Assembly: GCA_949372655.1 (NCBI GenBank)
Contig: CASIAI010000001.1
Coordinates: forward strand, 325,279 to 389,278
Direction: 5' to 3'
Length of the DNA: 64,000 bases
Source: Candidatus Poseidoniaceae archaeon
GTDB taxonomy: Archaea; Thermoplasmatota; Poseidoniia; Poseidoniales; Poseidoniaceae
The position numbers were made by a program, and so were the translations under genes. Shown here one piece after another: positions 44,621 to 51,606 of this stretch (within the stretch, counting starts at the first letter, position 1; each line of letters opens with the position of its first letter). The notes beneath the pieces were generated by a model. That model had not been told where the DNA came from. It searched no databases and saw nothing but the letters and a program-made list of their open reading frames with translations.

Positions 44621-47600
44621 ATGAAGAAAATATTAGCAGTGCTTTTCGCATGTTCGATTGTTCTAGCTGGATGTATGGATTTAACCGATGATGAAGTCGA
44701 AAAAATCGTCGATGAAATCGTTGAAATCCCTGGCTGCAATGCAGACGAAACAGCCTACAATTATGATAAAGATGCTTCAAATAATAATGCCTGTTTGACT
44801 GAAATGGTTCTGAAAGATTCGGTTACTAATTTTATCAACCTGCTGGATAATGGACCTGGACCAGATGAAATGATGGGAATGTCAATGGAAGGTTCAGGAA
44901 GCATGGAAGGCCAAAATTTAGACTGGACTTCTGTTAGAGTTTCTAGCCCAACTGGCCAATACATGAGTATGGAACTAAACATGGAGATACCAGTGTGGTC
45001 ACAGTCTCAACTCATCACCTCTGCATCTGACGGAACTACTTTGATGCAGGTCGACTACAATGGAGCCCAAATGCTAATGAACAGTGCTACAGATTTCACT
45101 TCGTTTAACAGCATTGACATGAACGACGATGATGGCAATGATGACACTTCAGATGATATTTCCGATAATGATGTAGACTGGAATACTTTTTCATACTGTG
45201 AATGGGAAGGAGAGGATACTGACACACGATGGTATTGCTCCGAGTATAATCAAGATGGAACTGACGGATTTGACGATTGGTGGTACTTGTGCGAACTAGA
45301 TTCACAAAACGGAATGTGGTATTGTTCTGATGATTTTGGAGAATCTCCAAATTGGGCAAATACTGCTAATGATACACGTCATTTAGGTGCGGTAATCGAT
45401 GACGATAGTGATATGGGCGATGATGGCACTGGCGACATGGATTTACCTAGCGTTGAAATCCCTGACGGTTTTGACCCTTCTACTGCATTATTTGAAGCAG
45501 GCTTGGCCACCGATAGCGGATACTCTTTCTCAACAACGTTGAACGATGGAATGGGATACTCACTGACTATGACCTTTGCTCTTGGAATGGACTTTAAGGT
45601 CAAATCATTGAATATGATCGAAACTATGGGTGAAGAAACCACAACTTCATCAGTTACTATTCTTGATGATGTCACCTCAATGAAATATCTTGATATTGAC
45701 TATACTCTACCATACCATGCTCTTCCATTTACTGTTTCCCTAATTGACCAAAATTATGGTGAAGTAATGTGGATGTGTGATGATGGTCAAGAAATTCAAG
45801 AAGATTGGGTCAATGATGGATATGAGGACTGTCAAGACGGATCTGATGAATTCAGCCATGATGATGGTGACATGAGTGGTGAAGAAGGAAATGGTAATGA
45901 CGGCTCAGATGACCAAAGTGACCATCCAAATAACCAAGACGATTGTGAAGCTGCTGGTGGCCTATGGATGACAGAAGAGTGGGAGTCAGAAGATGATATG
46001 GAAAGTGGGTCAGATGGAACCACAATGAACTCAGAAAGTTACTGTGATTTAAGCGGCAACGATATTGCTTCCGAGGAAGATATGTTTGCTGGTATGGATG
46101 TTAGCCTAGACTGGTATGATTTGATGTTATCAAATATAACCTCTTGGGTCACTGACTCAGATAGTCCAGCTGATGACATGGTTGCTTTGAATCACTACTG
46201 GATGAATAACAGTTTATACCACGTTGAAGAAATGGAAGTTGATTCAGATTGTGATGGAATTCATAACTCAGAAGACAATACTTGTACTACAGCAATCGGA
46301 ATCAATGTCACTGAAAGTGATAGCAATATGATGATTTGGTCATATGATGAAAGTTTTGAAATCTCCGACATAAAAGTCCTTTATGCATACAACCATGACA
46401 CTAGCAGTGGCATAATGGTTGGAATAGTCTTGAGTGATACAGATGATGATATGTTTTTGTGTGACAATGGCAATGAAATCGACTACGAATATTATGATGA
46501 TGGATATGACGACTGTGGAGACTGGTCTGATGAGCCTAACCATGAAGATGATGGTCCTGATGACCATGGTGATGAAGTATCGGAAGATACTGAAAACTTC
46601 ATGGATACTGCTGATGATGATGCAGACGGAATGTTGAGTCTAGACGAATGGATAGATTTTTGGAATGAAACAAGTAATGACGAAATTGGTGAAGGATTGA
46701 GTCAAGATGAGATAGATTCCTTTACCGAATTATTCGAAGATTATGATTATGATGATACTGATGAACTTGACTTAGATGAACTTGAAGATTTACTTACTTA
46801 CCTCATGGATAGTGATCATGATGACCATGAAAGCAGTTCTACAGGTACGAATGCTGAAGCTTTGATGTTTGCTCAAGATTATGTTGATGCTGAATCTGGT
46901 TATCACAACCAACCTGGTTTTGATCTTGCCAACGTGTTTAACTTAGCTGTCGAAAGCGATGGAGAAAATGTGACTGGCGGACTTGGAGGGGATTCAACCG
47001 ATGAATGCGGAATGAATTGGCCTTCTGATAGTTACCATGTCGCGATATATTCTTTCGTTTCGGAATATGTTTTGGTTGAGGCTGGTGCAATTGGATGTTT
47101 CTTAGACGATGCTAATTTGAACCAAACCTACGGATATGTTGCAGAGGATATGGAAAATGAGTGGTTCAATGCCGATGTTGAGCGTACTTTTACCTGTGAT
47201 AACGGTGATGAAATCCTCTTTTCTGACGTGAATAATGGATTTCAAGATTGTTATGAAGACGGTGCTGACGAACAGCAGTATGACAGCAATAACAATCCAA
47301 TTAACTCGTTTGATTGCGATGATGGAAGCCAAGTGTGGATATATCAGGTGAACGACGGCGTTGAAGACTGCTCAATGGGAGAAGACGAGAGCATCGAAGA
47401 TAGTGATGATGATCCCGAAGAGCCAGAAAATTTTGCCTGCTATGACACAATAATGGAAGAATACGACTATGTTCGAAACCAAACCGATTGTGAAGATAAT
47501 GGTTTTATCTGGATGGATTTGAATGATGACCATAATGAAAATGGAATTGTAGATGATGAGGAATTCGTTTGTGACAATGGTAATATAATACATAACGATC

Positions 47601-48721
47601 TAGTCAATAATGAAAATGACGACTGCGGAGATGGTTCAGACGAATACTCCGATGATGGCAATGGTGATGATGACCAAAGTGACAATCAATCTGAGGAGTG
47701 GATATATGAATGTGCTTACTTTGTAGATGCCGGCAGTACAGTCTATGACGATAATGGTAATGCGTCTTTCAATGATTCATGGATTTCTGATGAACTAAAC
47801 TATCTTTCTACCCTTTGTGGAACAGTTGTTGAAGAACCTGATATGTATCAAATCAATGAAGATGAGGCTGGAGATGGCAACATCACTTTGACTGAAGCAA
47901 CAGATTATTTTGGATCTGGAGATGATGATTGGATGACCTTTATTGACTCCGCTTTCATGTGTTCTGATTACAACGCAGACTCTATACTTGATTTAGTCGA
48001 ATTTAGTTCCTTCTACAGCATTATATCTCCCGAAGGAAATATTGCTATGCTACTTTGCGAGATGGACTTAGATCAATCCGGCGAAGTAAGCCCTAGTGAA
48101 TTTGGTCTTTGGAAAAATCAATCTCATCAAATGTCTGATGAAGATTGGAATGGCTTCCTCTCTGGATGGTACACAATCGACACTGACAATAGTGGTGGAT
48201 TAAATACTGTTGAACTTGCAGAAATGCTTTCCAATGATGAGGAGGATGATGATGACATCAACGAGGAGAATGGAGGCGATGTAGAAAATGATCGTGAAGG
48301 TTTGTATGGATGGATTATTACTAGTTCACAGGATATGCCTATGGAAGGAACATTTAGCGATTACTCAATCGTACTTGCACAATGCACTATGGAAGATACT
48401 GAAGACTCTGACAGTATGGACATGGACCTCAGTAATACTCCAACGATGGACTGCGGTGAAGATGTCATGAAACTCTCAATTGCTGATGCAATGGTAGATA
48501 ATGTAGCAATTACCTTCTATGATGCAGATGAATCTGGTACTGTTTCAGAGGGTGACGTGATTATGGTCAACAATGATACTGGTGATTGGAATACGGTTAG
48601 ACTACACTCATCATCTGCTAACTCTTATTCTGACGAAAACCCGATGATGACTCCAGGTTTCACCGGAGCTTTAGGAATGCTTGCTCTACTTGGAGCGGCT
48701 TTGCTAACTCGCAGAGATTGA
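44621..48721 (+). CDS. Giant acidic lipoprotein with LDLa-like and EF-hand-like repeats and a C-terminal PGF-CTERM-like signal
   Basis: Lipobox VLAGCMD; five CDNG...(V/Y)NDG..DC.DGSDE-type repeats; EF-hand-like loops (DDDADGMLSLDE, DLDQSGEVSPSE, DTDNSGGLNTVE); C-terminus PGFTGALGMLALLGAALLTRRD. Confidence 0.85.
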   Translation: MKKILAVLFACSIVLAGCMDLTDDEVEKIVDEIVEIPGCNADETAYNYDKDASNNNACLTEMVLKDSVTNFINLLDNGPGPDEMMGMSMEGSGSMEGQNLDWTSVRVSSPTGQYMSMELNMEIPVWSQSQLITSASDGTTLMQVDYNGAQMLMNSATDFTSFNSIDMNDDDGNDDTSDDISDNDVDWNTFSYCEWEGEDTDTRWYCSEYNQDGTDGFDDWWYLCELDSQNGMWYCSDDFGESPNWANTANDTRHLGAVIDDDSDMGDDGTGDMDLPSVEIPDGFDPSTALFEAGLATDSGYSFSTTLNDGMGYSLTMTFALGMDFKVKSLNMIETMGEETTTSSVTILDDVTSMKYLDIDYTLPYHALPFTVSLIDQNYGEVMWMCDDGQEIQEDWVNDGYEDCQDGSDEFSHDDGDMSGEEGNGNDGSDDQSDHPNNQDDCEAAGGLWMTEEWESEDDMESGSDGTTMNSESYCDLSGNDIASEEDMFAGMDVSLDWYDLMLSNITSWVTDSDSPADDMVALNHYWMNNSLYHVEEMEVDSDCDGIHNSEDNTCTTAIGINVTESDSNMMIWSYDESFEISDIKVLYAYNHDTSSGIMVGIVLSDTDDDMFLCDNGNEIDYEYYDDGYDDCGDWSDEPNHEDDGPDDHGDEVSEDTENFMDTADDDADGMLSLDEWIDFWNETSNDEIGEGLSQDEIDSFTELFEDYDYDDTDELDLDELEDLLTYLMDSDHDDHESSSTGTNAEALMFAQDYVDAESGYHNQPGFDLANVFNLAVESDGENVTGGLGGDSTDECGMNWPSDSYHVAIYSFVSEYVLVEAGAIGCFLDDANLNQTYGYVAEDMENEWFNADVERTFTCDNGDEILFSDVNNGFQDCYEDGADEQQYDSNNNPINSFDCDDGSQVWIYQVNDGVEDCSMGEDESIEDSDDDPEEPENFACYDTIMEEYDYVRNQTDCEDNGFIWMDLNDDHNENGIVDDEEFVCDNGNIIHNDLVNNENDDCGDGSDEYSDDGNGDDDQSDNQSEEWIYECAYFVDAGSTVYDDNGNASFNDSWISDELNYLSTLCGTVVEEPDMYQINEDEAGDGNITLTEATDYFGSGDDDWMTFIDSAFMCSDYNADSILDLVEFSSFYSIISPEGNIAMLLCEMDLDQSGEVSPSEFGLWKNQSHQMSDEDWNGFLSGWYTIDTDNSGGLNTVELAEMLSNDEEDDDDINEENGGDVENDREGLYGWIITSSQDMPMEGTFSDYSIVLAQCTMEDTEDSDSMDMDLSNTPTMDCGEDVMKLSIADAMVDNVAITFYDADESGTVSEGDVIMVNNDTGDWNTVRLHSSSANSYSDENPMMTPGFTGALGMLALLGAALLTRRD

Positions 48722-48726: not shown

Positions 48727-48862
48727 GCCAACATATGACAACCACTGGGGATATCCTTCAATGCTTGGAGGATGATTTCTGCTGTCTTAGCCGAACCATT
48801 CTTAATCTCTGACAATGCTGTTTCAATATGTGGAACTGCTGTCTTTAGATGTTGAACTAAAG

Positions 48863-48935
48863 TAGTCCCTCTCGGATTTGAACCGAGGTCGGGGGAACCA
48901 GAATCCTCCATGATGGACCGCTACACTAAGGGACT
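48863..48935 (-). tRNA. tRNA-Gln (anticodon CTG)
   Basis: AGTCCCT/AGGGACT acceptor, D-arm with GG, CTCGG-TTCAAAT-CCGAG T-arm, loop TTCTGGT giving anticodon CTG; one A-C mismatch in the anticodon stem. Confidence 0.87.
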
Positions 48936-49017: not shown

Positions 49018-51606
49018 ATGGTTCGGCGTCCTTCGGATATGAATAAGAAGTTTGCAATAGTGATGGCCCTTTTCATGGCCCTTGCTGGATGTACTGAAAG
49101 TATCGAAGATGACATAAAAGAAAACGTTAGTATCCCTGGGTGCAACGACGAGGCATCATTCAATTATAATGAAAGTGCAACTAATGTAGATGCATGCTTA
49201 ACAGAATTAGCCCTAGAACAAGCAATCATGGATTTCATGATGGCTATCGATGAAGGTCCTAAGAATGCCAATGATACAATTGGAGTAACTGCCTCTGCAA
49301 CATCATCTATGGATGACATGGCTTCAACTTCTACACTCGCATTCTCACCTTCAGGATTTGCTCAAATTGTGACCATGACTGGAAACATCGATATGGGACC
49401 AGGTATGGTAATGCCGATCGATATTAAAATCAATCAAAATGTCATGCCTAATCCTGATGGAACAGACTCTACAATTATGCACATAGTTCACATGAGTGCT
49501 GACAATGAATTTGTTATGCACAACGCTGTTTCATGGTCTACAATAGTCGCTGATATGCTTGATGATGACTGTGATGATGACTGTGATGGTGACAACATGG
49601 GTGAAGACGACATGGATGGAGACAACATGGGTGGAGACGACATGGATGGAGACGACATGGGTGGAGACCACATGGATGGAGACCACAACTCAAACAGTAA
49701 CCATGGAGACCACATGGAAATGGTGTGGCGTTGTATCGACTTTGTAAACTACTCGTTAGCCCCTTCAGATGGAAATATAACTGATGTTTTTATGTCAAAT
49801 GACCTTGACTTTTCCATGTGTGGTATGCTAGTAGGCGAGACTAATCATACCTTTGGAACAGGCGAATTCACCATGCCTGAAAAATTTGCAACCCGTGAAT
49901 GTATGACCAGTAGTATAGATCAAAGTTCAGAGTGCGAAACATCGGTAATCGAGTCAAATTCAACAGGATTATGGAATCACTTCTACGTATCTGAGGAATC
50001 TGCATGTGATGAGGGGAGCTTTGATAGTTCAACAAATATGTGCTTAGAATTTTTAGGTGAACTATCTATGAATGATTCTGAAGCATTTGAGGTATTCTCT
50101 CAAGGAGAAAGTATTACTGTCATGTATCAGTATAATTCAACTACTCAAAGTGGAATTTTAATGGTTGAAGATGATCCTGAACATGACGATGACATGAATG
50201 GGCATGATGATGACATGGGTGGAAACGACATGGACATGGGTATGCCAGATCCGGTTGACGCAAAGGATGTTTTGGAAGATTTTGATGTTACTAACTCAAC
50301 ATATGCTTTAGCACAAGCAACAGATAATGGATACTCTTTTACTGCCAATGTAACTGAAGAATATATGGATGAAGATGGTTCATCCATGAATGTCACAACC
50401 ACTTTCACATTTGTAATTGATTCTAGTTTTAAGGTCAATTCAGTTTCTGCTTCCAATGTAATGGAAACAATAACTGTTACAATTTTAACTGATACACAGG
50501 TCGAAGCGTACTTCAATACAGACTTGTCTGCTTTGACCACTCAAGCACTTCCATTCAGTGTTATGCCAATGGGTGGAAACCATGGTGATGACATGGACGG
50601 AGACGACATGGGTGGAGACCACATGGATGGAGACCACAACTCAAACAGTAACCATGGAGACCACATGGAAATGGTGTGGCGTTGTATCGACTTTGTAAAC
50701 TACTCGTTAGCCCCTTCAGATGGAAATATAACTGATGTTTTTATGTCAAATGACCTTGACTTTTCCATGTGTGGTATGCTAGTAGGCGAGACTAATCATA
50801 CCTTTGGAACAGGCGAATTCACCATGCCTGAAAAATTTGCAACCCGTGAATGTATGACCAGTAGTATAGATCAAAGTTCAGAGTGCGAAACATCGGTAAT
50901 CGAGTCAAATTCAACAGGATTATGGAATCACTTCTACGTATCTGAGGAATCTGCATGTGATGAGGGGAGCTTTGATAGTTCAACAAATATGTGCTTAGAA
51001 TTTTTAGGTGAACTATCTATGAATGATTCTGAAGCATTTGAGGTATTCTCTCAAGGAGAAAGTATTACTGTCATGTATCAGTATAATTCAACTACTCAAA
51101 GTGGAATTTTAATGGTTGAAGATGATCCTGAACATGACGATGACATGAATGGGCATGATGACCATGGAGTTCACAACTCACTTGATTGGATGATCTCTGA
51201 TAGTAACCTAGACCTACCACCTATCGCAGGAGATCTTTCTGACTACTCTGCAGTTCTTTCGGTTTGTGATGAAGACATGCCAGATTCTAGCGATGAAATG
51301 ATGGACTTGGGAGGCTCAGAATCAAGTTTAGTATGCTCAGAATTTGTTCTTATTGTTAAATTGAGTGACGCTGGAATGGACTCAGACATAATGTTCCATG
51401 ATGTAGATAACTCTGGAACTTTAACTGACGGAGATATGCTTCACATAAACCCTAATGCAACTATTGGAGATTGGACACACCTGCGTCTATACTCTACTAG
51501 TGCTGATGCATACAGTGATGAAAATCCAATGATGACTCCTGGTTTCACCGGAGCTTTAGGAATGCTTGCTCTACTTGGAGCGGCTTTGCTAACTCGCAGA
51601 GATTGA
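49018..51606 (+). CDS. Acidic lipoprotein with internal exact duplication and C-terminal PGF-CTERM-like signal
   Basis: Lipobox ALAGCTES (likely start MNKKFAIVMALFMALAGC); IPGCNDEASFNYNESATNVDACLTELAL parallels the 44621 protein; C-terminus PGFTGALGMLALLGAALLTRRD. Confidence 0.83.
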   Translation: MVRRPSDMNKKFAIVMALFMALAGCTESIEDDIKENVSIPGCNDEASFNYNESATNVDACLTELALEQAIMDFMMAIDEGPKNANDTIGVTASATSSMDDMASTSTLAFSPSGFAQIVTMTGNIDMGPGMVMPIDIKINQNVMPNPDGTDSTIMHIVHMSADNEFVMHNAVSWSTIVADMLDDDCDDDCDGDNMGEDDMDGDNMGGDDMDGDDMGGDHMDGDHNSNSNHGDHMEMVWRCIDFVNYSLAPSDGNITDVFMSNDLDFSMCGMLVGETNHTFGTGEFTMPEKFATRECMTSSIDQSSECETSVIESNSTGLWNHFYVSEESACDEGSFDSSTNMCLEFLGELSMNDSEAFEVFSQGESITVMYQYNSTTQSGILMVEDDPEHDDDMNGHDDDMGGNDMDMGMPDPVDAKDVLEDFDVTNSTYALAQATDNGYSFTANVTEEYMDEDGSSMNVTTTFTFVIDSSFKVNSVSASNVMETITVTILTDTQVEAYFNTDLSALTTQALPFSVMPMGGNHGDDMDGDDMGGDHMDGDHNSNSNHGDHMEMVWRCIDFVNYSLAPSDGNITDVFMSNDLDFSMCGMLVGETNHTFGTGEFTMPEKFATRECMTSSIDQSSECETSVIESNSTGLWNHFYVSEESACDEGSFDSSTNMCLEFLGELSMNDSEAFEVFSQGESITVMYQYNSTTQSGILMVEDDPEHDDDMNGHDDHGVHNSLDWMISDSNLDLPPIAGDLSDYSAVLSVCDEDMPDSSDEMMDLGGSESSLVCSEFVLIVKLSDAGMDSDIMFHDVDNSGTLTDGDMLHINPNATIGDWTHLRLYSTSADAYSDENPMMTPGFTGALGMLALLGAALLTRRD
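49648..50210 (+). repeat. Exact in-frame direct repeat, copy 1 (563 bp)
   Basis: Identical by eye to 50599-51161, offset 951 bp (317 codons). Confidence 0.93.
50599..51161 (+). repeat. Exact in-frame direct repeat, copy 2 (563 bp)
   Basis: Identical by eye to 49648-50210. Confidence 0.93.

Follow-up and report, generated by a model that had tools for sequence, protein, structure and literature searches.

LDLa-like repeats with two cysteines in a predicted lipid-anchored surface protein of Poseidoniales archaea

Introduction

LDL-receptor class A (LDLa) modules are usually treated as an animal invention. They hold six cysteines, paired in disulphides 1-3, 2-5 and 4-6, and in the LDL receptor (LDLR) a lysine of the ligand is clamped by carboxylates that calcium keeps in order and by an aromatic residue close to them. 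Glucosidase II beta contains an LDLa-containing domain as well, which holds the catalytic subunit of that enzyme. PGF-CTERM surface proteins carry a C-terminal tail that is processed by archaeosortase A.

Here we compare these systems with P0001, a protein of an archaeon that probably belongs to Marine Group II (Poseidoniales). LDLa as a kind of module is already known, and Pfam detects the archaeal repeats. In the literature searched, which excluded most subscription papers, LDLa repeats were nowhere described for these archaea; nor did the papers searched contain the uniform one-disulphide form, the class-wide spread, the LRP-like archaeal arrays or the likeness to glucosidase II beta. Adhesion in the lineage has been discussed in terms of flagella, thrombospondin and flotillin genes (PMC6461757, PMC6336850), and the words 'lipoprotein', 'EF-hand' and 'calcium' are absent from both papers.

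Results

The window (the whole stretch of 64,000 nucleotides that was analysed) contains an open reading frame on the + strand with exact bounds 44621-48721, encoding the 1366-residue P0001. Among named records the closest is L003, from a metagenome-assembled 'Euryarchaeota archaeon', with 92% identity across the second half of P0001; 3 of 85 residues differ within the repeats and 40 of 472 in the remainder. The features, all on the + strand, are as follows.

44621-48721, +, predicted lipid-anchored modular surface protein P0001, 1366 aa (ORF, profile, shuffle tests)
44621-44674, +, signal peptide with lipobox LAGC and putative lipidated Cys at aa 18 (sequence; lipobox-like start also in L003 and in a relative, L075)
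45158-45400, +, second module, aromatic, four-Cys (YCEWEG...WYCSEY...WWYLCEL...WYCSDDFG), without a Pfam family, recurring in many genomes of the order
45770-45853, +, two-Cys LDLa repeat 1, aa 384-411, 4/4 acidic Ca ligands
46454-46537, +, two-Cys LDLa repeat 2, aa 612-639, 4/4 acidic Ca ligands
46613-46648, +, EF-hand loop DDDADGMLSLDE, aa 665 (profile and consensus)
46745-46780, +, EF-hand loop DYDDTDELDLDE, aa 709 (profile and consensus)
47189-47275, +, two-Cys LDLa repeat 3, aa 857-885, one-residue insert, N at the D196 equivalent
47309-47392, +, two-Cys LDLa repeat 4, aa 897-924, 4/4 acidic Ca ligands
47528-47563, +, EF-like loop DHNENGIVDDEE, directly 5' of repeat 5 (consensus only)
47564-47647, +, two-Cys LDLa repeat 5, aa 982-1009, N at the D196 equivalent
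47966-48001, +, EF-like loop DYNADSILDLVE (consensus, profile scan)
48065-48100, +, EF-hand loop DLDQSGEVSPSE, aa 1149 (consensus, profile scan)
48179-48214, +, EF-hand loop DTDNSGGLNTVE, aa 1187 (consensus, profile scan)
48521-48556, +, EF-like loop DADESGTVSEGD in the conserved C-terminal domain (consensus)
48650-48715, +, PGF-CTERM-type sorting tail, predicted archaeosortase A substrate (profile; archaeosortase A in the same genome)

The N-terminus, MKKILAVLFACSIVLAGC, is a lipobox signal with the cysteine at position 18, in agreement with the first-pass annotation, which had called the protein a lipoprotein. The C-terminus, MTPGFTGALGMLALLGAALLTRRD, is a PGF-CTERM tail; PF18204 scores 19.1 bits on the C-terminal part (cut-off 18.8) and 15.8 on the whole protein. 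The genome also encodes archaeosortase A (TIGR04125; 107.5 bits, cut-off 75), as do 38 of the 40 genomes sampled from the order. The lipobox, the tail and the archaeosortase together therefore place P0001 at the cell surface. P0001 shares the PGF-type tail with other PGF-CTERM surface proteins but also carries the N-terminal lipobox, and the presence of both signals (44621-44674 and 48650-48715) in one protein suggests that both ends could be anchored. Asp and Glu make up 25% of P0001. An AlphaFold model of the N-terminal domain, built from three sequences, reached a pLDDT of 34, and the idea of a lipid-binding half-barrel, taken from the predicted strands of this domain, found no support.

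The five repeats with two cysteines each, as first annotated, were recovered within 0-3 bases of the original coordinates. The full motif [FWY]xC-17-C...DE occurs five times in P0001, against a mean of 0.001 and a maximum of 1 in 2000 composition-preserving shuffles. A further FxC-17-C match at aa 204 is not an LDLa repeat and belongs to the aromatic four-Cys module. PF00057 matches P0001 with 34.4 bits (E 2.6e-8; curated cut-off 24.1) and repeat 1 alone with 27.5 bits; in genome-wide scoring, single repeats reached 22 bits, and the five are the only LDLa repeats of the genome. Loose EF-hand loops are likewise enriched (7 observed, 0.63 expected). They comprise the four annotated originally, at aa 665, 709, 1149 and 1187, and three more that we added. 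EF-hand_1 scores 34.0 bits on aa 1060-1210 alone against a cut-off of 25.4, slightly under that cut-off on the whole protein (23.7 bits), and 54.9 bits in a paralogue in L003. Of the profile searches recommended at first pass, PF00057 gave a score above cut-off on the whole protein and EF-hand on aa 1060-1210.

The repeats resemble the LDLa modules of LDLR, VLDLR and LRP2 (PF00057) in the C2-to-C5 spacing of 18, the FxC start, the DC.DGSDE end, the four acidic ligands and a profile score above cut-off, as well as in forming tandem arrays on surface proteins anchored through a lipid or in the membrane. They differ in lacking C1, C3, C4 and C6, which leaves one possible disulphide instead of three, in having Asn at C4, in their archaeal host and in the EF-hand loops intermixed with them. 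Each of 236 distinct core repeats has exactly two cysteines and no extra core cysteine, a count that tests just the absence of other cysteines, as the search pattern itself demands C2 and C5. The C1 region (seven residues before F) has a cysteine in none of the 236. In the C6 region the five residues past DE are free of cysteine, and 15 cysteines occur at +6, where the first cysteine of the next repeat accounts for at least part of them. To avoid circularity, the archaeal repeat profile was rebuilt with every Cys replaced by X; in the 219 distinct repeats found with this cysteine-blind profile, C2 and C5 are Cys in ∼ 99% and C3 and C4 never are. The reduction to two cysteines, proposed from P0001 at first pass, is the rule across the archaeal lineage. 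Since LDLa modules natively have a C2-C5 bond, the loss is one of whole disulphides rather than of random cysteines.

The acidic calcium ligands are strongly conserved: the D196 equivalent is D in 219/236 repeats and D200 in 232/236, and D206 and E207 are invariant in the 219-repeat set. All four cage acids are present in three of the five P0001 repeats, with N for D196 in the other two (93-100% across the family). The C4 site is Asn ('VNDG') in 204 of the 236, and two of the five P0001 repeats, like ∼ 46% of the family, have W or Y at the aromatic site of the LDLR lysine clamp. An AlphaFold model of repeat 1, with nine P0001 and L003 repeats as input, gave a pLDDT of 72 and a hairpin at residues 6-9/14-16. 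Its Foldseek neighbours in the PDB are nearly all LDLa (best probability 0.95, rmsd 1.7 Å over 28 residues, every E-value ≥ 0.3), and a viral structure library returned no good neighbour (best probability 0.30). Since Foldseek scores draw on sequence in addition to shape, we treat this match as supporting evidence only. For the predicted LDLa fold, the sequence thus offers good support and the model moderate support.

As a lone PDB query, repeat 1 matches VLDLR, LDLR and glucosidase II beta, and these three and LRP2 are retrieved with a profile built from 34 archaeal repeats. Among 11 eukaryotic modules, this profile scored module 1 of glucosidase II beta highest (46.3 bits), followed by VLDLR LA2 (40.6 bits; shuffles ≤ 12.8). 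Without cysteines the values were 43.5 and 40.1 bits (shuffles ≤ 10.6), and the cysteine-blind profile matched eukaryotic LDLa modules with 24-44 bits overall; the match therefore does not come from the cysteines alone. Module 2 of glucosidase II beta scored lower (26-27 bits). In PDB sequences, module 1 reads FTCLDGSATIPFDQVNDDYCDCKDGSDE and the second module has 31 residues; both have no Cys at C3/C4 and Asn at C4. The IP...VND motif and the DC.DG(S/T)DE end are further likenesses of glucosidase II beta (PRKCSH, PF12999) to the archaeal repeats, from which it differs in that its modules add cysteines (DYC/GVC, and after DE) and in being a eukaryotic ER protein. PF12999 is second best after PF00057 for 26 of the 34 archaeal repeats. 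On repeat 1 it scores 18.5 bits, under its cut-off of 34.9, and it has no match in the genome of P0001; in some relatives it passes the cut-off (e.g. 61.1 bits in L075). A Pfam scan of P0001 found no mannose-6-phosphate receptor homology (MRH) domain. Judged by Asn at C4 and the overall profile, the match to glucosidase II beta is as good as, or better than, that to metazoan receptors. The likeness to metazoan LDLa noted at first pass thus stands with the PF00057 match, but metazoan receptors had been the only relatives named and, of the eukaryotic modules compared, module 1 of glucosidase II beta is the best match.

A survey of related archaeal genomes, also suggested at first pass, found PF00057 matches in 100 of the 146 genomes of the order (about 70%), 88 of them above cut-off, and in none of 14 control genomes. 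Across the phylum, the 34-repeat profile matched 108 of 393 genomes and 19 of 156 genera, all within the same order or one further (sister) family of the same class. The biggest arrays found comprise 17-23 modules in lipoproteins of 1347-1597 aa, and PF00057 scores 229.7 bits over 15 stretches of a 1594-aa relative. In many other proteins of the relatives there is just a single module or a pair, in some cases at the extreme C-terminus. A relative assembled as a single 2.06-Mb contig has 20 repeat matches, on which ground we reject eukaryotic contamination; the archaeal origin assigned at first pass is supported. The repeat had no match in the phage, plasmid and viral-contig collections searched.

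Some relatives carry the module in other settings. Two small membrane proteins (L084 136-729 and L043 57-800) have one C-terminal LDLa module straight after the transmembrane part; L084 also has a zinc-ribbon-like N-terminal part and a weak DUF4190 match. In L083, an ORF on the - strand, LDLa repeats flank a domain that, judged by eye, resembles a bacterial solute-binding protein (family 3).

Discussion

We propose that P0001 is a lipid-anchored modular surface protein with a calcium-stapled, one-disulphide variant of the LDLa module, which probably binds basic ligands or particles in a calcium-dependent manner, for adhesion or capture. This function is read from the sequence, and we give the proposal about an even chance of being correct. 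Each module of ∼ 28 residues would consist of a beta-hairpin and a calcium cage formed by the equivalents of D196, D200, D206 and E207. A single C2-C5 disulphide would hold the module, C1-C3 and C4-C6 being gone and Asn replacing C4. Calcium, abundant in seawater, would give the stability otherwise supplied by the lost disulphides, and cages that are always filled in seawater would make it a structural staple rather than a signal. Modules and EF-hand loops would then most likely show acidic, calcium-ordered faces that bind partner proteins, particles or extracellular ligands through their basic (lysine-rich) patches. We count in favour of the proposal the profile matches, the conserved cysteines and acidic ligands, the model of repeat 1 with its LDLa neighbours, the smaller divergence of the repeats between P0001 and L003, the archaeosortase A in the genome and the presence of repeats on membrane proteins, in long arrays and beside the solute-binding-like domain (by eye). 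Against it we count the moderate confidence of the model and the Foldseek E-values of 0.3 and higher, the N at the D196 site in two of five repeats, the variable clamp aromatic and the lack of a pathway hint from neighbouring genes.

That variable aromatic, where a ligand would be contacted, would also be expected if the modules were calcium-hardened structural spacers, i.e. long, protease-resistant, highly acidic stalks that lift other domains off the membrane without binding any specific ligand. The very acidic composition with nearly no Lys/Arg and the long tandem arrays, whose repeat number varies from 17 to 23, fit such a role. However, the many proteins with one or two modules, some of them C-terminal, would be useless as stalks, and the repeats of P0001 are dispersed among other domains. 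We consider a spacer role possible, if on the unlikely side. Somewhat less probable still is that the modules are docking elements for partner proteins such as secreted hydrolases or solute-binding proteins, comparable to the LDLa-containing domain of glucosidase II beta. The top eukaryotic score of its module 1, with or without cysteines and with the same VND at C4, argues for docking, as do the rank of PF12999 and its scores above cut-off in some relatives; the repeats of L083 flank a solute-binding-like domain (by eye). No conserved partner gene adjoins P0001, and the adjoining genes, a 2-oxoacid oxidoreductase and unknowns, give no pathway hint. In a protein with 25% Asp+Glu, an acidic low-complexity sequence might mimic DC.DGSDE by chance, but this reading is refuted by the counts (5 motifs against 0.001 per shuffle), by the Pfam cut-off passed and by the order-wide conservation with fixed cysteine spacing, and we regard its chance of being true as negligible.

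The preferred reading, a calcium-stapled binding module, would make the archaeal repeats a natural minimal LDLa module and a model for calcium replacing disulphides. P0001 and its relatives are a candidate surface-binding system of uncultured ocean archaea, and an abundant, probably marine planktonic, archaeal lineage carries one-disulphide LDLa arrays of up to 23 modules. The repeats also offer a lead on the origin of the LDLa module. It is conceivable, but in our estimate quite improbable, that the glucosidase II beta LDLa has its prokaryotic sister or precursor in them, in which case a calcium-held form of the fold would be older than animals and the extra disulphides would have come later. 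Modules of this length do not suffice for building a tree, and we therefore treat a shared ancestry with glucosidase II beta in particular as a lead and not a result.

The locus itself looks like a module-shuffling site for surface proteins. P0001 (44621-48721) and the adjacent 862-aa paralogue (49018-51606) are 32-53% identical in their N- and C-terminal parts, whereas their middles are wholly different; in L003, by contrast, the gene that follows carries a single LDLa repeat with several EF-hands. The paralogue contains an internal duplication of 193 identical residues (49633-50211 and 50584-51162), in which 4 of 579 bases differ; either it arose very recently or it is an artefact of the assembly. 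Between the two surface-protein paralogues lies a tRNA-Gln (CTG) gene on the - strand (48862-48935), a possible site of gene exchange.
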